Positions 35,719-48,679 of a stretch of DNA of 64,000 nt are shown here, piece by piece. The position numbers and the translations under genes were made by a program. Where the stretch lies: the NCBI GenBank assembly GCA_937995825.1, contig CALKJO010000017.1:1-64000 (forward strand), written 5' to 3'. Source of the stretch: an uncultured Anaerolineae bacterium (GTDB taxonomy: Bacteria > Chloroflexota > Anaerolineae > Aggregatilineales > Phototrophicaceae). Under the pieces are notes generated by a model. The model made no database searches and was not told where the DNA came from. It saw nothing but the letters and a program-made list of their open reading frames with translations. How positions within the stretch are numbered: the stretch's first letter is position 1; every line of letters begins with the position of its first letter.

Positions 35719-37104
35719 ATGACGCTGTGGGGGGGGCGGTTCAGCGAACCGACCGATTCTGATCTGCGCAGGCTCAATGACAGCATCGGCTTTGACCAGC
35801 GTATGTACGCTGAGGATATTCGCGCCAGCATCGCTTGGGCGCAGGCTATTCGAAGAGCGGGCGTGATCACATCTGATGAAGCCGAACGGATTGTGGCGGG
35901 ACTTGAACAGGTCAGGGGCGAATTTGAGGCTGGAACATTTGCGTTCAAACTCAGTGATGAGGACATTCACACAGCCGTCGAACGGCGGCTGACGGAGATC
36001 GTCGGCGCGGTCGGCGGTAAGCTGCACACTGGGCGCAGTCGTAATGATCAAGTCGCAACCGATTTTCGTTTGATCACCGTGAGCATGGCGCGCGGCTTGG
36101 CGGCACAGATCGCGCAGCTTCAAGCCGCTTTGATCGAAAAGGCAGAGGAGCATCTTGATACGCTCATGCCAGGCTATACCCATGTCCAACCGGCTCAGCC
36201 GATTACAGCAGCGCACTGGCTGATGAGCTATTTCTGGATGTTTCAACGCGACACCGTCCGCATGGAACAATCGGGGTCGGGGAGTGCTGGAGATAAACTG
36301 CCATTGGGGTCGGGCGCGCTGGCGGGAACGCCCTTTGCGATTGAACGCGATCAGCTCGCGAGTGAATTGGAATTCAGTGCGGTCAGTGAAAACAGCCTTG
36401 ACGCAGTCAGTGACCGCGATTTTGCGGCTGAGTTCCTGTTCGCGGCGTCGATGACGGGAATTCACCTCAGTCGGCTTGCCGAAGACTTGATCTGGTTCAG
36501 CAATCCGGCGCTCGGATTTGTGACACTGGATGATCGCTACAGCACCGGATCGAGCATTATGCCGCAGAAGCGCAATCCCGATCCGATGGAACTGGCGCGC
36601 GGAAAAGCCGGTCGCCTGATCGGAAACCTGACCGGTCTGCTGACCACGCTCAAAGGGCTGCCCACGGGCTACAACAAGGATTTGCAAGAGGATAAAGAAC
36701 CGGTCTTTGACTCCTATGACACGCTCATGCTGATTTTGCCTGTCATCAGCGCTGTTGTCCGAACGCTGAAGCTCAATCCTGATCAAATGCGCGCTGCGCT
36801 CGATGCGGATATGCTGGCGACCGACCTCGCCGATTACCTTGTTCACCGGGGGATGCCGTTTCGCGAGGCGCACCATGTGGCGGGGCAGGCGGTGCGCCTA
36901 GCGGCGGAAAAAGGCGTGCGCCTAACCGATCTGACAGTCGAAGATTTGCGAGGTTTGTCGCCGCTGTTTGGGGACGATGCTCTAGTCGTGTTTGACTTTG
37001 AAGCGTCAGTGGCGCGGCGCAAAAGCGTGGGTGGAACCGCCCCAGATGCGGTGCGGATGCAGATCGAAGCTGCGAAGATGGAATTGGGCAGGTCACACAA
37101 GTGA
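35719..37104 (+). CDS. argH: argininosuccinate lyase
   Basis: 461-residue lyase of the fumarase/aspartase superfamily, giving arginine and fumarate. The signature GSSIMPQKRNPD with catalytic serine in the flexible loop is intact; TGRSRNDQVATDFRL and TPFAIERDQLASEL are also typical. The start at 35719 (MTLWGGRFSEPTD) has AAGGA eight bases upstream and matches family N-termini; the frame remains open into argG but the extension is not homologous. Confidence 0.97.
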   Translation: MTLWGGRFSEPTDSDLRRLNDSIGFDQRMYAEDIRASIAWAQAIRRAGVITSDEAERIVAGLEQVRGEFEAGTFAFKLSDEDIHTAVERRLTEIVGAVGGKLHTGRSRNDQVATDFRLITVSMARGLAAQIAQLQAALIEKAEEHLDTLMPGYTHVQPAQPITAAHWLMSYFWMFQRDTVRMEQSGSGSAGDKLPLGSGALAGTPFAIERDQLASELEFSAVSENSLDAVSDRDFAAEFLFAASMTGIHLSRLAEDLIWFSNPALGFVTLDDRYSTGSSIMPQKRNPDPMELARGKAGRLIGNLTGLLTTLKGLPTGYNKDLQEDKEPVFDSYDTLMLILPVISAVVRTLKLNPDQMRAALDADMLATDLADYLVHRGMPFREAHHVAGQAVRLAAEKGVRLTDLTVEDLRGLSPLFGDDALVVFDFEASVARRKSVGGTAPDAVRMQIEAAKMELGRSHK

Positions 37105-37159
37105 AGTTGACGAAGATATACGAACTTTGTGCCGTTCAGCGTTTACACACTCGGCGCAC

Positions 37160-37188
37160 TTGACACTTTTGGCGATGTTCGTTACGCT
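37160..37188 (+). promoter_or_regulatory. promoter of the ilv-leu operon
   Basis: Perfect TTGACA (37160-37165), 17-base spacer, TACGCT (37183-37188). Predicted transcription start near 37195, 28 bases before a leader-peptide start and about 340 bases before ilvE. Confidence 0.65.
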
Positions 37189-37222
37189 TTATGTGTCGAG
37201 TCTGTAAATTCGGATGAGAATC

Positions 37223-37294
37223 ATGCGTTCACATTCAGCCTCCAGCCTTATTATCTTCGTAGACCTGCTTGTCCCTGTTATTGAGGTCGAGTAG
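37223..37294 (+). CDS. ilv leader peptide (attenuator)
   Basis: A 23-codon ORF beginning ATG with GGATGAG eight bases upstream and ending TAG. Residues 9-23 read LIIFVDLLVPVIEVE: ten of fifteen are Leu, Ile or Val, the three end products of the operon that follows. It lies just after the operon promoter and just before mutually exclusive antiterminator and terminator helices. Translation of this peptide would sense charged tRNA-Leu/Ile/Val; stalling leaves the antiterminator arm free, while a ribosome at the stop codon covers it. Identified by composition and position, not by homology. Confidence 0.8.
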   Translation: MRSHSASSLIIFVDLLVPVIEVE

Positions 37295-37297
37295 TAA

Positions 37298-37355
37298 CTG
37301 TTTGGGTGCTGACGGACGCGCAAGCGAACACGACAATCAGAAAGCTCCCAAACGG
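37298..37355 (+). promoter_or_regulatory. antiterminator helix of the ilv attenuator
   Basis: CTGTTTGGGTGCT (37298-37310) starts four bases after the leader stop and pairs with AGCTCCCAAACGG (37343-37355), including the seven-pair core GTTTGGG/CCCAAAC, one G-U and one mismatch. The 3' arm contains the 5' arm and loop of the terminator, so only one helix can form. Confidence 0.75.
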
Positions 37356-37365
37356 GGGCTTTTTT
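37341..37365 (+). terminator. attenuator terminator upstream of ilvE
   Basis: AAAGCTCCC (37341-37349), loop AAAC, GGGGGCTTT (37354-37362), ending in six T (37360-37365). Nine pairs with one G-U. Located 170 bases before ilvE in the operon leader. Confidence 0.85.
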
Positions 37366-37388
37366 GTGTGATAGGAGATAACACCAGT

Positions 37389-37478
37389 ATGAAGCAGGCA
37401 GCGCAGTTTCAGAATCAGCAGATGAAGCAGGACACTACTGCAATGGGCTGCTGCGATCACGCCGCATTTTCACGGTGA
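37389..37478 (+). CDS. second short leader ORF before ilvE
   Basis: 29-codon ORF with AGGAG 11 bases before its ATG. Composition is Gln-rich at first (MKQAAQFQNQQ) and ends MGCCDHAAFSR with two adjacent Cys codons. Its TGA overlaps the first base of the following terminator stem, so a ribosome releasing here would cover the 5' arm. It lacks Leu, Ile and Val almost entirely, so it is not a second copy of the first leader. Possibly a real leader peptide; it may also be chance. Confidence 0.4.
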   Translation: MKQAAQFQNQQMKQDTTAMGCCDHAAFSR

Positions 37479-37523
37479 CGCGCTTTTTCAGGTTGCAGAC
37501 CGAAAAAGCGCGTTTTTATTTTG
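37478..37523 (+). terminator. second intrinsic terminator directly before ilvE
   Basis: ACGCGCTTTTTC (37478-37489) and GAAAAAGCGCGT (37502-37513) form a perfect 12-pair stem with a 12-base loop, followed by TTTTTATTTT. It ends only two bases before the GAGGAAGG ribosome binding site of ilvE, so read-through is required for operon expression. Confidence 0.85.
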
Positions 37524-37536
37524 AGGAAGGAAGCAC

Positions 37537-38475
37537 ATGACCACTTATGGGAAGTACGTCTGGAAAAACGGCAGGCTGATCGCCTGGGAGGATGCAACTG
37601 TACATGTGACGGCACATGCGCTCCATTATGGATCAAGCGTTTTTGAAGGTATCCGCGCCTACAATACCCTGCAGGGGACAGCGGTCTTCCGCCTTCAGCC
37701 GCATATGCAGCGCCTGCTTCATTCGGCAAAGATCGCGCGTATGGAAATAGACTACGATCTCGATGCGCTCTGCAATGCCGTTCTGGACACTGTGCGCGAG
37801 AATGGACACGATGCCTGCTACATTCGTCCGATTGCGCTGCGCGGCGCGGGCGCGCTCGGCGTCGAGGGTCGCAAAAACCCAACTGAGGTCTTTATCATCA
37901 CGATGGAATGGGGGCGTTACCTCGGGCAGGAAGCGATTGAGCAGGGCGTCGATGTTCAGGTCAGCTCATGGCGGCGCATTGCGCCGGATACCTTTGCGTC
38001 GATGGCGAAAATTGGCGGTCAATATGTGAACAGCCAGTTCATCACGATGGAAGCGCACGATAACGGGATGAATGAGGGCATTGCGCTGGACTATAACGGT
38101 CATGTTAGTGAGGGCGCAGGCGAGAATATTTTCGTCATTCATGATGGGGTGGTTTACACGCCGGGGCGCGCCTCCTCAATTTTGTTGGGCGTGACGCGCG
38201 ACTGTGCGCTGACGCTGTTGAGCGACTTGGGTTACGAAATTCGCTATGAGGCGCTGCCGCGCGAGATGCTCTATGTCGCGGATGAAATCTTCTTCACAGG
38301 GACGGCTGCGGAAATCACGCCAGTACGTTCGGTGGATCGAATCAAGGTGGGGAGCGGGAGCCGCGGACCCATCACGAAAGCCGTGCAAGATGCCTTTTTC
38401 GCCATTACGTCGGGACAACAGCCCGATAAATATGGTTGGCTCACCTATGTCAAGCAGACTGAAGCAGGAGACTAA
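37537..38475 (+). CDS. ilvE: branched-chain amino acid aminotransferase
   Basis: 312-residue class IV PLP aminotransferase, last step of Val, Leu and Ile synthesis. HALHYGSSVFEGIRAY is the family opening, GGQYVNSQFITMEA carries the PLP lysine region in this subgroup (Lys in SMAKIGG), and DEIFFTGTAAEITPVRSVD is the C-terminal signature. GAGGAAGG eight bases upstream fixes the start. First structural gene of the ilv-leu run. Confidence 0.95.
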   Translation: MTTYGKYVWKNGRLIAWEDATVHVTAHALHYGSSVFEGIRAYNTLQGTAVFRLQPHMQRLLHSAKIARMEIDYDLDALCNAVLDTVRENGHDACYIRPIALRGAGALGVEGRKNPTEVFIITMEWGRYLGQEAIEQGVDVQVSSWRRIAPDTFASMAKIGGQYVNSQFITMEAHDNGMNEGIALDYNGHVSEGAGENIFVIHDGVVYTPGRASSILLGVTRDCALTLLSDLGYEIRYEALPREMLYVADEIFFTGTAAEITPVRSVDRIKVGSGSRGPITKAVQDAFFAITSGQQPDKYGWLTYVKQTEAGD

Positions 38476-38481
38476 AAACCC

Positions 38482-40179
38482 ATGATTTTAACTGGCGCTG
38501 AGATTATGTTAGAGTGTCTGCTCCGTGAAGGCGTAGACATTATGTTTGGGTATCCGGGTGGGGCGATCCTGCCTTTTTATGACGCGATGAGCAAATACCC
38601 GCAGATTAAGCATGTGCTGGTGCGGCATGAACAAGGCGCATGTCATATGGCGGATGGCTATGCCAGAGCGACAGGCAAAGTCGGTGTGGCGGTCGCCACC
38701 AGCGGACCCGGCGCCACCAATTTGGTCACTGGCATTGCAACCGCGATGATGGACTCCTCGCCGATTGTCTGCATCACCGGTCAGGTTCCGCGCAGTGTAA
38801 TTGGTTCGGACGCTTTTCAGGAAACCGACGTGACGGGTATCACCCTGCCGATCACTAAGCACAATTACCTGGTCTCCGACATCAGCGAACTGGCGTATGT
38901 CATGCGTGAGGCGTTTTATATCGCCCGCTCTGGACGACCGGGTCCGGTGCTGATCGATGTGCCGAAGGATGTTCAGAACCAGAAAACCGAGTTTGTCTAT
39001 CCTGAGGGACCCATCCGTCTGCCAGGTTACGTGCCTCCGAGCAGCGGCGTCGAGAATGATATTCAGGCGGCGGTCGAGCTGATCAATCAGGCGGAACGCC
39101 CGATCATTCTGGCAGGCGCGGGCATCGGCAAATCGGGCGCATCCGAGGCGCTGCGAGCGCTTGCGGAAAAAGCGCAGATCCCCGTCGCGCTGACGCTGCT
39201 CGGTAAAGGCGGCATGTCGGAGAATCATCCGCTGACTTTGGGGATGATGGGGATGCACGGCGAAGCAGCAGTCAACTACGCCATTCAGGAAGCCGATCTG
39301 CTGATCGCGCTTGGAATGCGCTTCGACGACCGCGTAACCGGCAATCTCAAGACCTATGCGCCCAAAGCCAAAAAGATTCACGTCGATATCGACCCGTCGG
39401 AGATCAACAAGAATGTTCGCGTGAATGTCGGCATCGCTGGCGATGTAAAAACTGTCATCGAGCAGCTCCTGCCTGGCGTGAAGGAGAACTCGCATCCGGC
39501 ATGGCTCAATACCATCCGCGACTGGCAGGAGGACTCTGATGAGCGCGACATTATCAACCGCGATACCGGCGGACGCCTGCTGGCAGCGCAGGTGATTCAC
39601 GACCTTTGGCAGATCACGGGCGGGAATGCGATCACTGCGACCGATGTCGGTCAGCATCAGATGCTCGAGGCGCAGTATTATCCGCACCTGCGCCCGCAAA
39701 CCCTGATCACGTCCGGCGGCTTAGGCACGATGGGCTTCGGGCTTCCGGCTGCGATTGGCGCGAAATTTGGGCGTCCTAATGAAGAGGTGTGGGCAATTGC
39801 AGGTGACGGCGGCTTCCAGATGACGATGTGCGAGCTGGCGACAGCGGCGCAGGAAGGCTTGGACATCAATATTGCCGTTGTCAACAACGGCTTTCTGGGA
39901 ATGGTTCGCCAGTGGCAGGAACTCTTCCATGAGTCGCGTTACAACTCAACACCCATGTTCAATCCTGACTTTGTGCGGCTCGCGGAGGCGTTTGGCATCC
40001 CAGCGCGGCGGGTCACCAAGCGCGAAGAAGTTGCCGATGCGGTCAATTTCGCGCGCAGCATCCAGGGTCCTGCCTTGATCGAATTTGTCGTCGAGAAAGA
40101 AGACATGGTCTATCCGATGGTTCCCGCTGGCGGTGACCTGCACGCGATGATCCGCCGCCCGAAACCGAACGAGGAGTAA
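38482..40179 (+). CDS. ilvB: acetolactate synthase large subunit
   Basis: 565-residue ThDP-dependent catalytic subunit that condenses two pyruvates, or pyruvate with 2-oxobutyrate. YPGGAILPFYDA and the ThDP-activating Glu in VRHEQGACHMADGYARATGK are seen; the C-terminal ThDP/Mg motif is GDGGFQMTMCELATAAQEGLDINIAVVNNG, with MVRQWQELF of true acetohydroxy acid synthases. Seven bases after ilvE and four bases before ilvN. Confidence 0.97.
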   Translation: MILTGAEIMLECLLREGVDIMFGYPGGAILPFYDAMSKYPQIKHVLVRHEQGACHMADGYARATGKVGVAVATSGPGATNLVTGIATAMMDSSPIVCITGQVPRSVIGSDAFQETDVTGITLPITKHNYLVSDISELAYVMREAFYIARSGRPGPVLIDVPKDVQNQKTEFVYPEGPIRLPGYVPPSSGVENDIQAAVELINQAERPIILAGAGIGKSGASEALRALAEKAQIPVALTLLGKGGMSENHPLTLGMMGMHGEAAVNYAIQEADLLIALGMRFDDRVTGNLKTYAPKAKKIHVDIDPSEINKNVRVNVGIAGDVKTVIEQLLPGVKENSHPAWLNTIRDWQEDSDERDIINRDTGGRLLAAQVIHDLWQITGGNAITATDVGQHQMLEAQYYPHLRPQTLITSGGLGTMGFGLPAAIGAKFGRPNEEVWAIAGDGGFQMTMCELATAAQEGLDINIAVVNNGFLGMVRQWQELFHESRYNSTPMFNPDFVRLAEAFGIPARRVTKREEVADAVNFARSIQGPALIEFVVEKEDMVYPMVPAGGDLHAMIRRPKPNEE

Positions 40180-40183
40180 CCTC

Positions 40184-40747
40184 ATGGCTGAGCCAGTTTC
40201 CAAAAATCATATCGTGTCGGCGCTTGTTGAGAACAAGCCCGGCGTGCTGAATCGAGTCGCTAGCCTGTTTCGCCGTCGCAATTTCAACATCAACAGTCTG
40301 ACCGTCGGGCGCACCCACCGCCCGCACATCTCGCGGATGACGATCACGGTTGACGCGACGCGCCAGGATGCACGGCGAATCCAAGCGAATCTGTACAAGC
40401 TGATCAACGTCATTCGAGTCGAAGTGGTGTCCAATGAGCCGCATGTCAGCCGTGACTTGGCGCTGATCAAGGTGCGCAGCGATGACGCCGACTCGCGCAA
40501 TCAGCTTACCGAGCTGTGCGAGCGTTTTCCGGCGCGCATCGTCGATATCGGTCCGAAGGTCGCTATTGTCGAGATCACGGCTCAGGAAGATTTAGTGCAG
40601 GCGTTCATCAACGCGGTTGAGCCGATTGGGATCGTCGAAATGGTGCGCACTGGCGTAGTCGCGATGGGGCGCGGTGTGCGCATCCTCGACACCGACTATG
40701 AGCCAGCCGTCCCCCAGCCTAGTGGGAGCATTCAGCACGTCTATTGA
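40184..40747 (+). CDS. ilvN: acetolactate synthase regulatory subunit
   Basis: 187-residue small subunit with an N-terminal ACT domain (HIVSALVENKPGVLNRVASLFRRRNFNINSLTV) that binds valine for feedback inhibition, then the IlvN C-terminal domain (FPARIVDIGPKVAIVEITA). Length is that of the long-type small subunit (IlvH-like). Directly follows ilvB. Confidence 0.96.
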   Translation: MAEPVSKNHIVSALVENKPGVLNRVASLFRRRNFNINSLTVGRTHRPHISRMTITVDATRQDARRIQANLYKLINVIRVEVVSNEPHVSRDLALIKVRSDDADSRNQLTELCERFPARIVDIGPKVAIVEITAQEDLVQAFINAVEPIGIVEMVRTGVVAMGRGVRILDTDYEPAVPQPSGSIQHVY

Positions 40748-40762
40748 GATAGGCTTGATCGT

Positions 40763-40811
40763 CTTCGGGGCAGCCACGGACGCTGCTCTGAAGGCTTGAT
40801 TTTTATTTTTG
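40763..40811 (+). terminator. intra-operon terminator-like hairpin between ilvN and ilvC
   Basis: CTTCGGGGCAGC (40763-40774) pairs with GCTGCTCTGAAG (40782-40793), 12 pairs with two G-U, 7-base loop; after six bases comes TTTTTATTTTT. An AGGCTTGAT direct repeat flanks the stem (40751 and 40792). Could reduce or time ilvC expression. Confidence 0.6.
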
Positions 40812-40832
40812 TGCGCGTAGGGAGAACACTTC

Positions 40833-41843
40833 ATGGCAGTAATGTATTACGACAAAGACGCCGATCTGTCGCTCTTGGATGGCAAGACGATTGCGGTGAT
40901 CGGATATGGCAGCCAGGGGCATGCGCACGCGCTCAATGCGCGAGACAGCGGCATGAACGTGATCATCGGATTGTATGAGGGCAGCAAGAGCGCCGAGAAA
41001 GCGCGGGCGGATGGATTTACCGTCATGACCGTGGCGGAAGCGACCCGAAACGCTGACATCATCATGATCCTCATCCATGATACGTTGCAGGCAAAAGTCT
41101 ATGCCGAGTCGATTGCGGATAACCTCAAGCCTGGCTCCATGCTGATGTTTGCGCACGGCTTCAATATCCACTATAAGCAAATTCAGCCGCCCGCTAACAT
41201 CGACGTGACAATGGTCGCGCCGAAAGCGCCGGGTCACCGTGTCCGTGAGGTGTTCACTGAAGGGGCAGGCACGCCGGGCTTGATCGCTGTTCATCAGGAC
41301 GCAACCGGTCAGGCGCGAGCGCTGGCATTGGCATACGCGCGGGCGATTGGCTGCACTCGCGCAGGTGTGATCGAGACGACGTTCAAGGAAGAAACTGAAA
41401 CCGATCTGTTCGGCGAACAGACCGTTTTATGCGGCGGCGTCACAGCGCTAATTCGCGCGGCTTTTGAGACGCTGGTCAAGGCGGGTTATCAACCCGAGAT
41501 CGCCTATTTTGAATGCCTGCATGAACTCAAGCTGATCGTCGATCTGATGTACGAGGGCGGCTTGTCGTACATGTGGTACAGCGTCAGTGACACAGCGGAA
41601 TACGGTGGTTACGTCACCGGCGATATGATCGAAAGTGAGATCAAGGAGTCGTTCTCCGGCGTGCTGACAGCGATTCAGGATGGATCGTTTGCGCAGCGCT
41701 GGATTCAGGAAAATGCGAACGGACAGCCGGAATTCCGCGCGCGCCGGCGAGCCGAGCATGAGCTGCTGATCGAAAAAGTCGGCGCGGAGCTGCGCCCAAT
41801 GATGTCGTTCCTCAAAGCCAAAACCGTTCGTCAAGAGTCATAA
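40833..41843 (+). CDS. ilvC: ketol-acid reductoisomerase (class I)
   Basis: 336-residue enzyme converting acetolactate to dihydroxyisovalerate with NAD(P)H and Mg. [20 protein letters not shown] is the coenzyme fold and [21 protein letters not shown] holds the metal-binding acids. In the loop after the second strand the sequence is GLYEGSKS, with Tyr-Glu where NADPH enzymes usually have Arg, so coenzyme choice is uncertain. GGGAG nine bases before the start. Confidence 0.96.
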
Positions 41844-41870
41844 GCGAGTGCAGATATATAACCTGGGGAA

Positions 41871-41957
41871 AGGGGGTGATCCGATTGGTAGAAGATGGGC
41901 TTAGCGATCTAAACGACCTTTGTTTAACCAATCTGAATGATGAAAGGATCACCCTCC
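41871..41957 (+). promoter_or_regulatory. structured leuA leader with SD / anti-SD-like stem
   Basis: GGGTGATCC (41874-41882) pairs perfectly with GGATCACCC (41946-41954), extended by G-U and G-C; GATTGGT (41883-41889) pairs with ACCAATC (41927-41933) stacked on it. The 5' arm AAAGGGGGTGATCC matches the full 16S anti-SD complement at 12 of 13 positions; the 3' arm resembles the 16S rRNA 3' tail with one inserted C and covers the leuA ribosome binding site AAGGAT. Confidence 0.6.
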
Positions 41958-41977
41958 AATGGCACGCCGACCTATAG
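41885..41977 (+). CDS. Leu-rich leader ORF overlapping leuA
   Basis: 30-codon ORF from a TTG placed eight bases after AGGGGG (an in-frame GTG at 41876 lies inside that ribosome binding site). Seven Leu codons of six different kinds (CTT, CTA, TTA, CTG, CTC) occur; the middle reads [17 protein letters not shown]. It ends with TAG at 41975-41977, inside leuA in another frame. The frame runs through a stem that hides the leuA ribosome binding site. Whether it is translated is unknown. Confidence 0.4.
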
Positions 41978-43563
41978 ATGAAAACGTAGTTCTGATTTTC
42001 GATACAACGCTGCGCGATGGCGAGCAAAGCCCTGGCGCAACGCTGAGCAGCGCGGAAAAGCTGGAGATCGCGCGGCAGCTTGCGCGCTTGGGCGTTGATA
42101 TCATTGAGGCGGGGTTTCCCGCTGCATCACCTGATGATCTGGCTGCAGTTCAGCGCATCGCTCGCGAAGTTGGGACAAAGGACGGACCGACTATCGCCGG
42201 ACTTGCGCGCGCGGTTGAAAAAGACATCCTCACTTGCTGGGAGGGCGTCAAGGACGCTTATTATCCGCGCATCCACACGTTTCTCGGCACAAGCGACATT
42301 CATCTGAAATATCAGACCGGTCTGACGCGCGCGCAGGCGCTCGATGTCATCCGCAAGGCGGTGACGCTGGCGCGCAGCCTATGCGACGATGTCGAATTCA
42401 GCCCGATGGACGCTGGGCGAACCGATCCGGCATTCTTAGTCGAGGTCTGCGCGCTAGCGGTCGAGTGCGGCGCGACGACGCTCAACATTCCCGATACAGT
42501 AGGCTATGTCACGCCGAACGAATGGTATGAAACGATTGCCAATCTGATCGCCGAAACGCCTGGCGCAGGTCCTGGCAGCGGGATCATCTGGTCGATGCAC
42601 TGTCATAATGATCTGGGGCTGGCGACCGCGAATACGCTGGCAGGGATTCGCGCTGGGGCGCGGCAGGCGGAAGTCACGATCAATGGGATCGGCGAGCGCG
42701 CTGGCAACACCAGCCTGGAAGAGGTTGTGATGGCGCTGCAAACGCGCAGCCCCTATTACAAGCTGCGCACCAATATCAACACGCGCGAACTGGTCAAAAC
42801 CAGTCGGATGGTCAGCAATTATACCGGCATTCATGTCCAGCCAAACAAGGCGATTGTAGGCAGCAATGCGTTTGCGCATGAGGCGGGGATTCATCAGGAT
42901 GGGATGCTGAAAAATGCTTCCACATATGAAATCATGACGCCTGAGAGCGTCGGCTGGACGCAGAGCCGGTTGGTGTTGGGCAAACACAGCGGACGCCATG
43001 CGCTGAAGGTGCGGCTGGAAGAGCTGGGCTATAACTTGGACAAAGATGCGCTCAACCAAGTCTTCAGTCGGTTCAAGGTGCTTGCTGATGCCAAGAAAAA
43101 TGTCACCGATGCCGATCTGCAGGCGCTGATGGCGGATGAGTTTCACAAGCCACAGGAATTTTACCGCCTTGTTGACATTCAGGTTACCTGCGGCACGATG
43201 GGAATGCCGACCGCGACAGCGAAAATCGCCGATCCGGACGGCAATGAACATATTGTCGCAGCAGTCGGTGTCGGACCGGTCGATGCGTGCTATCGCGCTG
43301 TCGATCAGGTGGTGAAGATGCCCAACACGCTGACGGAGTACAGCGTTCACAGCGTTACTGAGGGCATCGACGCGCTCGGTGAGGTAACAGTGCGGATTTC
43401 GACGCCGGATGGCTCGCGTTCATTCGGCGGCTACGGCGCGGACAGCGACATTGTCGTATCAAGTGTTAAAGCATATCTGGCGGCACTGAATCGGATGATT
43501 GCAGGTGTTGGAACGGGGCAGTTCAAGCCAGAAGGCGAAGCCGCCACCGTGGAGTTGAAATGA
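41959..43563 (+). CDS. leuA: 2-isopropylmalate synthase
   Basis: 534-residue enzyme condensing 2-oxoisovalerate and acetyl-CoA, first step to leucine. [17 protein letters not shown] holds the metal-binding Asp and catalytic Arg; [37 protein letters not shown] is the metal/substrate signature. The C-terminal LeuA allosteric domain (about 400-520) is present, so leucine feedback is expected. Start codon preceded by AAGGAT at 11 bases within a stem. The sequence is the LeuA type, distinct from CimA downstream. Confidence 0.95.
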
Positions 43564-43588
43564 AGTTCTCAAATTGGGTGAAAGATCG

Positions 43589-45019
43589 ATGACCGCGCAA
43601 ACGCTTTTCGAGAAAGTCTGGAATCAACATATCGTGCAGCCCGGCGGTGAAGGGCTGCCAGCGGTGCTGTATATCGACCTGCACTTGGTGCATGAGGTGA
43701 CTTCACCGCAGGCGTTCACCCTACTGCGTGAAAAGGGATTGAAAGTCCGCCGACCGGATAAGACGCTGGCGACGATGGATCACAGCACGCCGACGACGCC
43801 GCGCGGCATAGACGGCGTGATTCCGGTCACGGACGCGCAGGCAGCGGCGCAGCTTGAAGTAATGCGCAAGAACGCCGCCGATTTCGGCATCCCTCTTTAC
43901 GATCTCGGCACGCGCAATCAGGGTATCGTCCATGTGATCGGACCTGAACAAGGGCTGACTCAGCCCGGCATGACGATTGTCTGCGGCGACAGCCATACCA
44001 GCACGCACGGCGCGTTCGGCGCGCTCGCCTTTGGCATCGGCACAAGCGAAGTGGCGCATGTGCTGGCGACTCAATGTCTGCTGCAGTACAAACCGAAGAC
44101 GATGGCGGTGCGGGTCGATGGTCGGCTGCATCCTGGCGTCACGGCGAAAGACATCATTCTCGCCATTATCGCTAAGATCGGCGTAGGCGGGGGGACGGGC
44201 TACGTTTTTGAGTACATGGGTGAAGCGATCCGAGCGCTGTCGATGGAAGGGCGCATGACGATCTGCAACATGTCGATTGAAGGGGGCGCGCGCGCTGGCA
44301 TGGTCTCGCCGGATGAGACGACCTTTGAGTGGGTGGCGGGGCGTCCCTATGCGCCAAAAGGCGCGGACTGGGATCGCGCCTTGGCGCGCTGGCGGACGCT
44401 GCCGACCGACGACGGCGCGGTATTTGACAACGAAGTTGTCCTCGATGCGGATCAACTGACACCGATGATCACCTACGGCACGAATCCTGGCATGGGGATG
44501 CCGATCACAGCGACAGTGCCTGATCCGGATCAGGTGGGCGATGTCAGCGCGAAGATGGCGCTCGACAAAGCCCTTAAATACATGGATTTGCAGCCCGGTC
44601 AGCCGCTCCTGGGCAAGCCTGTTGATGTCGTGTTCATCGGAAGCTGCACTAACTCGCGCATTGGCGATCTGCGCGAGGCGGCGCGGCTGATGCGCGGTCG
44701 CAAGGTTGCAGATGGCGTGCGTGTGATGGTAGTGCCGGGTTCGCAGCAGGTGAAGGCGCAGGCGGAAGCCGAAGGGTTGGATCGGATATTCAAGGAGGCT
44801 GGGGCAGAGTGGCGCGAAGCGGGCTGCTCAATGTGCATCGCCATGAACGGCGATCAGCTCGCGCCAGGACAGTATGCAATCAGCACCAGCAACCGCAATT
44901 TTGAGGGTCGTCAGGGCAAGGGCGGGCGCACTTTCCTCGCCAGCCCGCTGACAGCGGCGGCAACCGCGATCAACGGCGTGATCACCGATCCGCGCCAGCT
45001 CGTTCTGGAGATGGCTTGA
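43589..45019 (+). CDS. leuC: 3-isopropylmalate dehydratase large subunit
   Basis: 476-residue aconitase-family subunit carrying a [4Fe-4S] cluster. Cluster cysteines are in [14 protein letters not shown] and [38 protein letters not shown] is the substrate signature. ATG at 43589 ([11 protein letters not shown]) is preferred over TTG 43574. Works with LeuD on isopropylmalate and, in this operon, on citramalate. One base separates it from leuD. Confidence 0.95.
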
Positions 45020-45020
45020 T

Positions 45021-45629
45021 ATGGAACCGATCCGGAAATTTAGCGGCAGGCTTGTCCCGCTGCCGATCAATGATATCGACACCGATCAGATCATCCCGGC
45101 ACGCTATCTTAAGGTGACAGACAAAGCCGGACTTGGCGCAGCGTGCTTCACCGACTGGCGCTATGAAGCCGATGGCACGCCAAAGCCAGACTTCATCATG
45201 AACCAACCTGAATATCAGGGGGGAACGATCTTGATTGGCGGACATAACTTTGGCTGCGGCAGTTCTCGCGAACATGCGCCGTGGGCGCTGATGGGCGCGG
45301 GCTTCAAGGCGGTGATCAGCACCTATTTCGCCGACATTTTCCGCAACAACGCGCTCAAAAACGGGCTGCTTCCGATTGTCGTCGATGAGGCGACCCATCG
45401 GCAGTTGATCAGCTTGGCTCAGGAAGACCCGCAGACGCAGGTCACCGTCGATCTGGCGACTCAGACGCTGACTCTGCCTGATGGACGGGCGGTGACGTTC
45501 CCGATTGATGCGTTTTCGAAAGAGTGTCTGCTCAAAGGGGTCGATCAGCTTGGCTTTCTGCTCGATCTGGAAGCGGAGATCGCGCATTACGAGCGTGAAA
45601 ACCCCGCGCGCGTCAATACGTTAGGTTAG
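45021..45629 (+). CDS. leuD: 3-isopropylmalate dehydratase small subunit
   Basis: 202-residue swivelling domain partner of Leu[17 protein letters not shown] and [28 protein letters not shown] are the family signatures. Length is typical of the bacterial form. Confidence 0.95.
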
Positions 45630-45633
45630 TGAT

Positions 45634-47091
45634 GTGAGCCAGACTCCGCAGACCATCCGCGGCTCTTGGTGGATCGGCGCTGCTGTGACCGCCCTGGTCA
45701 TCGCGCTGACACTGCCGGGTATTCGCGCCTGGTTTTACATCATCAACGAGTGGGAGATTGTGGAAGCGACGCCATACGAGGTGATCGCCCCTGCTGCGCG
45801 CCGGATCGAGGCTGACCTCGTCAATTTCGGGCGCTTCCGTCCGCTCTACTGGCTGATCTGGCACAGCCAGCGCAGCCTGATTCGGGATGATGTGCTGGTT
45901 TGGCATCTGGCTGCGGCGGGAATGGGTGTTGTGACCTGTCTGCTCCTGTTTGGCGCGCTGCGCCCGCTGGTGCGCGCGCCGCTGGCAGGGTTGGGCGTGC
46001 TGCTGCTCTTGTTTTATCCGCGCAGCGGCGCAATCTGGTACAACTTGGTGTATCAGGAGACCAGTGGGACGCTGCTGGTCGCGCTGGCGGGGTTTGCCGC
46101 AGTGCGGGGCGCGGTCAGCGGGCGGCGCGGGTGGGATGCGGTGTTTGCAGTGTCGGCGATCCTAGTCGGGTTCATCAAAGAAAACTACGCCCTGCTTCTG
46201 CCCGCTCTGATCGGCGCACGATTGACTCTTCAACTGCTCTATCACCGCCCAGTGAAAGCGGTGATGCCGGCGCTGTTCGCAGTGGGCATGTTCTTCATCG
46301 TCCTGATCGCTGTGATCGGCGTGATCTATCTGCGCAGTCCGCATGGCTATGGGCAGGTGATCGTCTCCGAACGCCCGATCTATCTCGACTCGCTGGCGCG
46401 CGTGCTGCTGCCTGCAGGCGTGATCGTCCCGGCTTCAGCGGCGGGTGTGATCTGGGCGCGCCGCAAGCCCCTGCTGACGCTGTGTGCGCTTGGCACGCTG
46501 GCGTTGTGGGTCATGCCGCAAGTCGGTCTATACAACGAGCGCATTCAGGAGCGCTTTCTCTATCCCGCTATCGTGGGTTCGGCGGCTGGGACAGTCATCG
46601 GTTTGTATATGCTGCGCCAGGTGCGATGGCGCGGCGCGGCTTGGGCGGTCTGGGCTGCAAGCTGTCTGCCATTTTTGCCGAATGTGCCTAGTCAGTGGAT
46701 GGATGCCGCCCACTTTGCGGACTCGACGTATCATCTTCAGTCCACAGTCGCAGCACTCACCGCGCTGGATGTGGAAAACATCGTGATTCAGATCGATCCG
46801 AAGGACAATTACGATCAGTATGAGGCTACCTATTCGGTGACTTTGTTTTTGCGACATGCCGGCTATGATGGCAGACTCGAACTGTATCATCCTCCGAATG
46901 TGCCGATGGAGATGCTGATCGGATATGTCGATAACGGCTTTTACAGTGCCGTCAACGGCGGACGACCTGCCGCGCCAACTGCCTACGTGATCCTCAATGC
47001 GGAGACACGCTGGGAGATCGCGCTGATCTGTCAGGTCGATCCATGTCCAGAACCGCCGATTTTGCTGTCAGACTCAGATGAGAGAGGATAG
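45634..47091 (+). CDS. polytopic membrane protein, GT-C-like, unknown function
   Basis: 485-residue integral membrane protein with about nine to ten hydrophobic segments and a C-terminal soluble part of roughly 120 residues. Topology (large first loop with acidic residues EWEIVEATPYEV, many helices, soluble tail) resembles GT-C glycosyltransferases of the ArnT/PMT kind, but I see no decisive motif. GTG start, four bases after leuD, and its end overlaps the region just before cimA. No role in leucine synthesis is known for such a protein; it may be inserted for co-expression only. Confidence 0.65.
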   Translation: MSQTPQTIRGSWWIGAAVTALVIALTLPGIRAWFYIINEWEIVEATPYEVIAPAARRIEADLVNFGRFRPLYWLIWHSQRSLIRDDVLVWHLAAAGMGVVTCLLLFGALRPLVRAPLAGLGVLLLLFYPRSGAIWYNLVYQETSGTLLVALAGFAAVRGAVSGRRGWDAVFAVSAILVGFIKENYALLLPALIGARLTLQLLYHRPVKAVMPALFAVGMFFIVLIAVIGVIYLRSPHGYGQVIVSERPIYLDSLARVLLPAGVIVPASAAGVIWARRKPLLTLCALGTLALWVMPQVGLYNERIQERFLYPAIVGSAAGTVIGLYMLRQVRWRGAAWAVWAASCLPFLPNVPSQWMDAAHFADSTYHLQSTVAALTALDVENIVIQIDPKDNYDQYEATYSVTLFLRHAGYDGRLELYHPPNVPMEMLIGYVDNGFYSAVNGGRPAAPTAYVILNAETRWEIALICQVDPCPEPPILLSDSDERG

Positions 47092-47098
47092 AGCCGCG

Positions 47099-48679
47099 AT
47101 GCAGATTGCAATCTATGATACTACCCTGCGCGATGGAACGCAGCGCGAAGGCATTTCGCTGTCCTTGATGGACAAGCTGCGCGTCACGGAGCTGCTTGAT
47201 AACCTCGGTGTGGCATATATTGAGGGCGGCTGGCCTGGATCGAACCCGAAGGACGCTGCCTATTTCGACGCCGTGCGCGATCTATCGCTGAAACATGCCA
47301 AAATCGCTGCTTTTGGCGCAACCTGCCGCAAGCATTCCGATCCGGCAGACGATGCCAACATTCGCGCCCTCGTCAATGCGCAGACGCCGGTCGTCACTGT
47401 GGTTGGAAAAACGTCGATGCTGCATGTGACTGACGTGCTGCAAACCACGCCGGAGGAGAATTTGCGCATGATTGCAGAGAGCGTCCGGTATCTGAAAAGC
47501 CTGGGCAAAGAAGTCATCTACGACGCTGAACACTTCTTCGATGGCTCGAAGCTGGATTTTGAGTACGGCTTCGACACCCTGCGGGCGGCGGTCGATGGCG
47601 GGGCGGACGTGCTGGTGCTGTGCGACACCAACGGCGGAACGCTGCCTTGGGAGATCGAGCGGTATTTTGAGGCGGCGCGCCAGGCGTTTCCCGGCGTCCC
47701 ACTGGGGATTCATACACACAACGACTCAGAACTCGCGGTTGCCAACACGCTGGCGGCGGTGCGGGCGGGCGCGGTGCAGGTGCAGGGGACGATCAACGGC
47801 TATGGCGAACGCTGCGGCAACGCCAATCTATGCAGCATTATTCCCGATTTGGAACTGAAGATGGGCTTGCGGGCGCTGCCGCCTGGCAGCCTGCGGATGC
47901 TGACGCATATCTCGCGGGCGGTCGCGGAGATCGCTAACCTCGCGCCGGATGATCACAGCGCTTACGTCGGTAAGAGCGCATTTGCGCATAAAGGCGGGAT
48001 TCATGTCGCTGCGATTCGCCGCAACGTGGACAGCTATCAGCACATCGATCCGAGTCTGGTTGGCAACCAAATGCGCGTGCTGATCTCCGATCTTTCGGGG
48101 CAGGGGAATGTCCTCAGCAAGGCGGAGGAATTCGGGCTGGATGTCAATCAGGCGGAAGCGGTCAAGGTTTTGGATGAGATCAAGCGACTGGAAAATCAGG
48201 GCTTTGTCTTTGAGGGCGCGGAGGCATCGGTTGCGGTGCGCTTGTATCGGGCATATCCGAACTATGTCCCGATCTTCAGCCTAATCGACTTCACCGTGAT
48301 CGTCGAGGATCGCCGTGGACGTGGGACGATTGCGGAGGCGATGGTCAAGCTCGAAATCGATGGCGAAATTGTGCATACCGCAGCGGAGGGCAACGGACCT
48401 GTCAACGCGCTTGACATGGCGCTGCGCAAGGCATTGATGCCGCGCTATCCGCGCATCGCCGATTTCCAGCTTGCCGATTACAAAGTCCGTATTCTTGATG
48501 GCAGCAACGGTACAGCGGCGGTCACGCGGGTGCTGATCGAAACGCACAATGGTGTGAAGCGCTGGAGTACCGTTGGCGCAGGCGCAAACATTATTCGCGC
48601 AAGCTGGCTTGCACTGGTGGACAGCGTTGAATATGGGCTTTGCCTAGCGGATCAGGATGAGAAAGCGCGTGTACAATAA
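47099..48679 (+). CDS. cimA: (R)-citramalate synthase
   Basis: 526-residue LeuA-superfamily enzyme condensing pyruvate and acetyl-CoA to citramalate, first step of the threonine-independent route to 2-oxobutyrate and isoleucine. YDTTLRDGTQREGISLSLMDKLRVTELLD is the opening typical of CimA rather than LeuA; GIHTHNDSELAVANTLAAVRAGAVQVQGTINGYGERCGNANL is the metal/CoA signature and a C-terminal regulatory domain follows. ATG 47099 preferred (AGAGGATAG upstream). leuCD and leuB in the same operon supply the later steps. Confidence 0.9.
   Translation: MQIAIYDTTLRDGTQREGISLSLMDKLRVTELLDNLGVAYIEGGWPGSNPKDAAYFDAVRDLSLKHAKIAAFGATCRKHSDPADDANIRALVNAQTPVVTVVGKTSMLHVTDVLQTTPEENLRMIAESVRYLKSLGKEVIYDAEHFFDGSKLDFEYGFDTLRAAVDGGADVLVLCDTNGGTLPWEIERYFEAARQAFPGVPLGIHTHNDSELAVANTLAAVRAGAVQVQGTINGYGERCGNANLCSIIPDLELKMGLRALPPGSLRMLTHISRAVAEIANLAPDDHSAYVGKSAFAHKGGIHVAAIRRNVDSYQHIDPSLVGNQMRVLISDLSGQGNVLSKAEEFGLDVNQAEAVKVLDEIKRLENQGFVFEGAEASVAVRLYRAYPNYVPIFSLIDFTVIVEDRRGRGTIAEAMVKLEIDGEIVHTAAEGNGPVNALDMALRKALMPRYPRIADFQLADYKVRILDGSNGTAAVTRVLIETHNGVKRWSTVGAGANIIRASWLALVDSVEYGLCLADQDEKARVQ

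Follow-up and report, generated by a model that had tools for sequence, protein, structure and literature searches.

A candidate peptide-coded transcription attenuator before the ilvEBNC-leuACD operon of an uncultured Anaerolineae bacterium and its counterparts in related genomes

The leader preceding ilvE in an uncultured Anaerolineae bacterium very probably represents a ribosome-mediated transcription attenuator of the ilvEBNC-leuACD operon. The window (the whole 64,000-nt stretch of DNA that was analysed) was placed in contig C17 of the 3.49 Mb genome, and argG and argH (NCBIfam) lie upstream of the leader. The genes from ilvE to leuD are presumably carried on a single transcript, as judged from gene order and spacing. 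A 485-aa ORF, apparently encoding a membrane protein, also lies inside the ilv-leu gene run. The relevant features are as follows:

37104 to 37537: leader gap from the end of argH to the start of ilvE, containing the promoter, ORF1, the arms and terminator 1
37160 to 37188, + strand: sigma-70-type promoter, TTGACA at 37160-37165, a 17-nt spacer and TACGCT at 37183-37188, by direct reading
37223 to 37294, + strand: ORF1, leader peptide of 23 codons, MRSHSASSLIIFVDLLVPVIEVE followed by the stop, with Leu/Ile/Val control codons
37235 to 37246, + strand: arm 1, inside ORF1, from minimum free energy (MFE) folds; its predicted partner is arm 2 when the ribosome is absent
37298 to 37310, + strand: arm 2, the antiterminator arm, CTGTTTGGGTGCT, with the core GTTTGGG
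37341 to 37353, + strand: arm 3, terminator 5' arm AAAGCTCCC (37341-37349) plus the loop AAAC; the 3' portion of arm 3 is the partner of arm 2
37354 to 37365, + strand: arm 4, terminator 3' arm GGGGGCTTT (37354-37362), with T6 at 37360-37365
37341 to 37365, + strand: intrinsic terminator 1, isolated hairpin of -12.9 kcal/mol
37389 to 37478, + strand: ORF2, 29 codons, with AGGAG at 37373-37377; it occupies the site of the small SPWTE protein of relatives, the motifs being absent
37477 to 37522, + strand: terminator-like hairpin 2, GACGCGCTTTTTC (37477-37489) and GAAAAAGCGCGTT (37502-37514) plus TTTTTATTTT, -22.3 kcal/mol
37537 to 45629, + strand: controlled operon ilvE-ilvB-ilvN-ilvC-leuA-leuC-leuD, from ORF calls and NCBIfam names
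45634 to 47091, + strand: the 485-aa ORF, located after leuD and before the citramalate synthase gene
ORF ending at 48679, + strand: citramalate synthase gene (NCBIfam), after the 485-aa ORF

According to the proposed mechanism, transcription would begin near 37195, with a ribosome on ORF1 following close behind the RNA polymerase. When Leu, Ile or Val is scarce, the ribosome would stall in the codon run and leave arm 2 free; as terminator 1 emerges, arm 2 would capture its loop together with half of its 5' arm, and transcription would go on. When these amino acids are sufficient, the ribosome would reach the ORF1 stop and cover arm 2, and terminator 1 would form. Terminator 1 would also form if ORF1 were left untranslated, through pairing of arm 1 with arm 2. 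RNA extending past terminator 1 would meet hairpin 2 before reaching ilvE. Translation of ORF1, ribosome stalling, termination and the response to amino acids are steps that we infer from these parts.

By direct reading, the promoter with its perfect TTGACA, arm 2 and terminator 1 were found where the initial annotation had put them, and the final 15 residues of ORF1 comprise three Leu, three Ile and four Val, as it had counted. Thus, ten of the final 15 codons of ORF1 specify Leu, Ile or Val and can serve as the control codons of a peptide attenuator, and the intrinsic terminator of such an element is present between ORF1 and the first structural gene. Arm 2 starts three bases past the TAG of ORF1. 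Its pairing with exactly the terminator 5' arm, as originally described, was overstated, the partner being the loop and half of that arm: GTTTGGG pairs with the CCC at the end of the 5' arm and with the loop AAAC, after which a mismatch and then a few more pairs follow. Nor is the attenuator complete at 37365, as had been claimed, since ORF2 and terminator-like hairpin 2 follow before ilvE. By the rule used, the ORF1 of the window, the start of which was picked automatically, has no Shine-Dalgarno-like stretch, and a generic promoter and terminator scan of the window reported neither the leader promoter nor terminator 1. The promoter was missed because the rule demands four of six matches in the -10 element and TACGCT has three; terminator 1 was probably missed because the U-run was counted after the A-U pairs. 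The whole leader RNA folds mildly better than its shuffled versions (z -1.67, with 13 of 200 shuffles as good).

The conservation of the leader was assessed in a family set of 98 genomes, 93 of which carry this ilvE by the criterion of E at most 1e-100, and all 93 upstream regions were taken. Two genomes of the window's genus (G010 and G014) lack this ilvE type at that threshold. An automatic rule identified a leader counterpart in 88 of the 93, and the Leu/Ile/Val-rich peptide, the retention of which in related ilvE leaders had been put forward as a check by the initial annotation, is accordingly kept in 88/93. Among the five genomes missed by the rule, peptide and hairpin are visible in G007, G058 and G063 (the hairpin of G058 being without a T-run), a contig end cuts into the leader in G006, and no leader was detected upstream of ilvE in G112. 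A promoter with at least eight of 12 consensus matches precedes 86 of the 88 family leaders, 82 of which have an exact TTGACA, compared to control frequencies of 6/88 on the reverse strand and 7/264 in random upstream 170-mers; it is located 28-46 nt ahead of the ORF1 start in 80 of these 86. Because the promoter is kept upstream in 86/88, a transcription start downstream of 37365 appears unlikely. With automatically assigned starts, only 30 of the 88 leader ORFs are preceded by a Shine-Dalgarno-like stretch. Additionally, CTT and CTC account for 80% of the 467 Leu codons of the family leaders and CTG for 8%, as against 28% and 49%, respectively, of the 219 Leu codons in the ilvE genes of 12 relatives; the associated chi-square of 203.5 derives from rounded fractions and related sequences and is a guide only. 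Biased control codons are a known attenuator trait, according to an excerpt of PMC1183508, while an alternative cause of the Leu-codon bias would be the avoidance of G, keeping the codon run unstructured.

The commonest form of arm 2 is GGCTTGGG, with the partner CCCAAGCC formed by the end of the terminator 5' arm and the loop (47/88 leaders as listed); arm 2 pairs with the terminator loop, which is therefore conserved. Compensatory changes, for which related ilvE leaders were likewise to be searched, were seen in this antiterminator. In the window, as in G019, G048 and G072, the family pairing GCTTGGG/CCCAAGC is altered on both sides to GTTTGGG/CCCAAAC, and other two-sided changes are TCTTGGG/CCCAAGA (G015 and G021) and GCGGG/CCCGC (G067-G069). 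Covariation was scored using TTGG and CCAA as anchors in 79 of the 88 leaders, the other nine being dropped for a missing anchor. The first pair beyond the anchors is C-G in 72 cases, T-A in four and unpaired in three (n=79), so that 76 are paired versus 72.4 in shuffles, with none of 5000 shuffles reaching 76; after collapsing of identical flanks the count is 20 paired of 21 (P 0.0018, from shuffles that ignore relatedness). The T-A versions belong to genera g1 (that of the window), g6 (two genomes) and g25. For outer pairs 2 and 3 no excess over shuffles was found after the same collapsing (P 0.10 and 0.26, respectively). On our reading, the three unpaired cases (G093, G096 and G097) seem to stem from an anchor falling within the ORF, and these leaders pair fully when the arm 2 duplex is computed. 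Across the leaders, the duplex of arm 2 with the stem-plus-loop has a mean energy of -19.3 kcal/mol, versus -10.0 for shuffled arms, and lies at or under 2% of 100 shuffles in 69/88; in G005, G017 and G073 the ORF as read runs over the arm, and the arm 2 duplexes there are weak. Arm 1 is a putative partner of arm 2, at least four of the seven core positions of arm 2 being paired in the predicted MFE structures of 74 of the 80 TTGGG leaders, in a few of them with partners outside the ORF. By prediction, the antiterminator is mutually exclusive with the terminator and would be masked by a ribosome at the stop codon.

The masking fold that the initial annotation had proposed (37195-37370, at equilibrium) provided no discrimination: whether arm 2 or a ribosome footprint was masked, the terminator prevailed in each of the seven full-length states. 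It was replaced by a stepwise fold, in which the polymerase was advanced and only RNA lying 3' of the ribosome could pair. With the polymerase at 37356, just inside the 3' arm, the computed antiterminator probability is 0.999 for a ribosome stalled upstream, as against 0 for one at the stop, and it exceeds 0.9 in 84/88 leaders with the polymerase 3 nt into the 3' arm. At equilibrium, with arm 2 free, the terminator of the window reaches -29.0 kcal/mol versus -25.3 kcal/mol for the antiterminator. Since the terminator thus wins at equilibrium even with arm 2 free, the folding model implies that the switch in the window, if working as proposed, must be kinetic, i.e. co-transcriptional. As a final state, the antiterminator is the more stable of the two in only 34/88 leaders, and in the other 54 it is not. 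With these qualifications, the peptide-attenuation mechanism originally read from the window is supported by the retained peptides and the compensatory changes.

The frequency with which such an arrangement arises by chance was estimated by a rule that calls for a terminator-like hairpin with, at most 110 nt upstream, an ORF carrying at least nine Ile/Leu/Val in its last 22 codons. Only one of the 13 terminator-like sites of the window (both strands) passes, and this is the ilvE leader site. In 80 other loci (1.28 Mb, both strands counted), six of 82 terminator-like sites pass, of which three represent this leader in other members of the family and one an ilvD leader; the remaining two are false on our reading of the peptides, being ends of a longer gene, apparently leuS.

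Related leaders were also encountered beyond the family. Model R1, built from alignment A1, contains three base pairs only, and outside matches were therefore judged by reading the ORFs and the downstream genes. It matches 24 of 298 genomes of the class, with 15 places outside the family or beyond the main match, 11 of which were fetched; nine of these 11 read as attenuators, preceding ilvB, ilvD (twice), leuA (twice), leuS, serA and, with a Leu/Ile/Val peptide, other ORFs (twice), while L220 and L229 were unconvincing on reading. Leu-rich leader peptides with terminators stand before leuA and leuS in L219, L222 and L228 (leuA in two of them), and the Thr/Ser-rich peptide before serA in L227 is a weak case, both its start codon and its relevance being uncertain. 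Its successor, model R2, gives matches in 94 of 400 genomes of the phylum at E 0.01, many of them weak and the E-values being rough; in the window's own genome a single match is strong, the next being at E 0.19. Among 29 R2 loci read (the window's excluded), 19 were judged to match by peptide and gene: ilvB and ilvD (five each), DAHP synthase (five), branched-chain transporter-like (two), metG (one) and, doubtfully, thrC (one). The remaining ten (L236, L237, L240, L244, L245, L248, L253, L254, L257 and L258) were rejected as having no convincing leader-gene link. Gene names in this wider set are from NCBIfam where loci were scanned and from our own reading elsewhere, and the counts carry no shuffled or unrelated-gene control. 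Tyr/Phe-rich leader peptides, each with an arm and a terminator, precede an aroF-type DAHP synthase ORF in L234 (where the peptide has six consecutive Tyr), L235, L249, L251 and L256; in L238 the Met-rich peptide MSRESTPMMAMVNAVAMRHGGLMLGRTL and a terminator precede metG, and in L241 a Met-rich peptide of uncertain start codon and relevance precedes thrC. In Anaerolineae bacterium isolate SJ7, ilvD-ilvE likewise follows a Leu/Ile/Val leader with a terminator (L006:1930-2140).

Alternative explanations of the ilvE leader were weighed against attenuation. Terminator 1 might just end the argGH transcript, in which case the Leu/Ile/Val ORF would have arisen by chance or encode an unrelated small membrane peptide, as short ORFs rich in these codons can code for small hydrophobic peptides. 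In line with this, the end of argH (37104) lies some 240 nt ahead of terminator 1, and argH is found upstream in 78 of the 88 leader-bearing relatives. The other ten keep the leader although no argH was detected, however, and a promoter, kept in 86/88, lies between argH and the terminator; the terminator loop, as the pairing partner of arm 2, is conserved and changes in step with it, the codons of the run are chosen differently from those of ilvE genes, and leuA, aroF and metG have Leu-, Tyr- or Met-rich peptides at the corresponding position, all of which makes a simple argGH terminator highly improbable.

The operon might instead be controlled by a T-box or by some other leader that binds a metabolite or a protein, with the ORF being incidental; in favour of this are the T-boxes found before ilvE in other Anaerolineae (L008, L010, L018 and L022; E 3e-9 to 9e-15 in a permissive search, under the gathering score) and the one RF00230 (T-box) match listed elsewhere in the window's genome (C12:7955-8243). 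Conversely, RF00230 has no match at the window's ilvE leader, no Rfam family reaches the gathering threshold in the window, and at E up to 1 the sole match over 37100-37600 is RF00489, an unrelated plasmid antisense RNA (E 0.9). Moreover, the leader up to the U-run comprises approximately 170 nt, nearly half of which is ORF, and a binding leader of this kind is hence regarded as extremely improbable. The peptide leader could also act by a route other than the arm 2/arm 3 switch, such as translation coupling, Rho or a peptide working in trans. The equilibrium energies in the window, which favour the terminator, are in keeping with such a route, as is the analogous ilvB leader of Streptomyces, which failed codon-mutation tests (codon changes in S. 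coelicolor being without effect, according to the excerpted text of PMC1262725); it is set against the compensatory pairs, the strong co-transcriptional antiterminators and, by the rule used, the U-tract hairpins of the 88 detected leaders, and is considered improbable. Ribosome-mediated attenuation through the arm 2/arm 3 switch consequently remains the preferred reading.

Peptide attenuation is textbook knowledge for enterobacteria, in which the ilv and leu attenuators (ilvGMEDA, ilvBN and leu) are of the leader-peptide type with alternative hairpins and an intrinsic terminator. When compared by description, the window leader shares with these the Leu/Ile/Val control codons, their biased choice, the alternative hairpins and a terminator before branched-chain genes, while it differs in that its antiterminator uses the terminator loop and in that ORF2 and terminator-like hairpin 2 follow. 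Candidate branched-chain peptide attenuators are also in print for Actinobacteria, and hence are not confined to enterobacteria; as described in the accessible portion of PMC1262725, the ilvB and leuS leaders resemble that of the window in their Ile/Val/Leu codon runs and their U-tract terminators before ilv, with attenuators before leuS. The actinobacterial ilvB peptide ORFs overlap the terminator, and in that portion of the paper (PMC1262725) the mode of regulation is left open; the peptide ORF of the window, unlike these, ends before a distinct antiterminator arm, which shows compensatory changes. The literature matches listed also include PMC10272879 and PMC11857589, for Corynebacterium ilvBNC, and branched-chain peptide leaders of S. 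aureus and Listeria (Firmicutes).

In Firmicutes, peptide leaders replace T-boxes, as for hisS (PMC2965389, in extract). The situation here is similar in that the same gene has a T-box in some lineages and a peptide leader in others, and differs in phylum and gene, the contrast being between the window's family and other Anaerolineae. The T-box ilvE leaders of the latter (four loci) have the same target gene and presumably the same amino-acid logic, yet they are tRNA-binding RNAs rather than translated peptides. At the gathering threshold, Rfam reports only tRNA genes before ilvE in other Chloroflexota loci; two tRNA-Ala genes precede ilvE in each of the seven typed loci (L004, L008, L010, L012, L017, L018 and L022). 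In L008, L010, L018 and L022 the order is a tRNA-Ala pair (CGC, GGC), the sub-threshold T-box and ilvE. T-boxes are reported in Chloroflexi in the available parts of PMC2494555 and PMC3766115, and Chloroflexi are mentioned once in that of PMC4833913, as a group with too few genomes. Filing the window's leader under the curated Rfam leader families was rejected, as there was no match; Ile/Val attenuators were then absent from Rfam according to the excerpt of PMC3766115, and the Rfam negative therefore speaks mainly to a Leu leader. Among the literature matches listed, the coverage of which leaves out most subscription journals, no peptide attenuator is reported for Chloroflexota. Attenuation of the classical peptide type is known, while its occurrence in Chloroflexota looks unreported in the papers covered.

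The region between terminator 1 and ilvE was examined as a possible second stage. Hairpin 2 has a counterpart in 45 of the 54 family leaders with a gap of at least 140 nt; by the rule used, an ORF with a Shine-Dalgarno-like site reaches the 5' arm of this hairpin in 29 of the 45, and the other 16 have no such ORF. In 17 of 93 family genomes (G075 included) ORF2 is a conserved small protein (TSPWTEAYQ...PTHDALSxIYN), here termed SPWTE, whereas the ORF2 of the window is without the motif and the SPWTE family profile has no match in the window's genome. In an alignment of 14 SPWTE proteins, pN/pS is 0.18 at motif columns and 0.84 at other columns; the codons of the residues SPWTE vary synonymously, while GAC GCG CTT, which forms the hairpin arm, is nearly invariant. 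Within the order, the profile has matches in 29 of 151 genomes, at one place each and confined to families f1, f7 and f8; in the class sample it matches five of 249 genomes, all of the same order. In the 26 of these 29 matches that were examined (all but G115, G119 and G129), the gene stands directly before the first ilv gene (ilvE, ilvB or ilvD); 16 of them are located just upstream of the family ilvE and ten are read loci (with gene names by reading). All ten f7/f8 loci inspected have a Leu/Ile/Val run further upstream, in which these amino acids make up 8 to 12 of 15 residues. Among four proteins tested for identity with a known protein, no NCBIfam match was obtained, and the single sub-cutoff Pfam match (E 0.027, to an unstructured coactivator region) was rejected.

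These observations raise the possibility, which we consider rather doubtful, that the leader is a two-stage gate, in which ORF1 and terminator 1 would sense branched-chain shortage and ORF2 and hairpin 2 general translation competence. In such a gate, a ribosome finishing ORF2 would overlap the 5' arm of hairpin 2, allowing transcription to reach ilvE, and a ribosome delayed by any other shortage would permit hairpin 2 to stop transcription. The recurrence of hairpin 2 (45/54), the ORF2 counterparts reaching its 5' arm (29/45) and the conservation of the SPWTE motif before ilvE, ilvB or ilvD alike are consistent with a gate of this type. However, the full motif occurs in 17/93 genomes only and is absent from the window's ORF2, hairpin 2 may be merely a terminator, and by the rule used a suitable ORF is lacking in 16/45. 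The SPWTE protein of some relatives is possibly a feedback partner of the ilv pathway.

The data suggest that branched-chain amino acids are handled by peptide attenuation throughout the family, beside relatives with an ilvE T-box, and that other members of the phylum carry related leaders for Leu, Tyr/Phe and Met. A new lead is the conserved small gene that lies between the attenuator and the ilv genes. The family and its relatives would provide a natural series for studying the replacement of one sensing system by another, and the amino-acid responses of uncultured bacteria may in this way become predictable from sequence.
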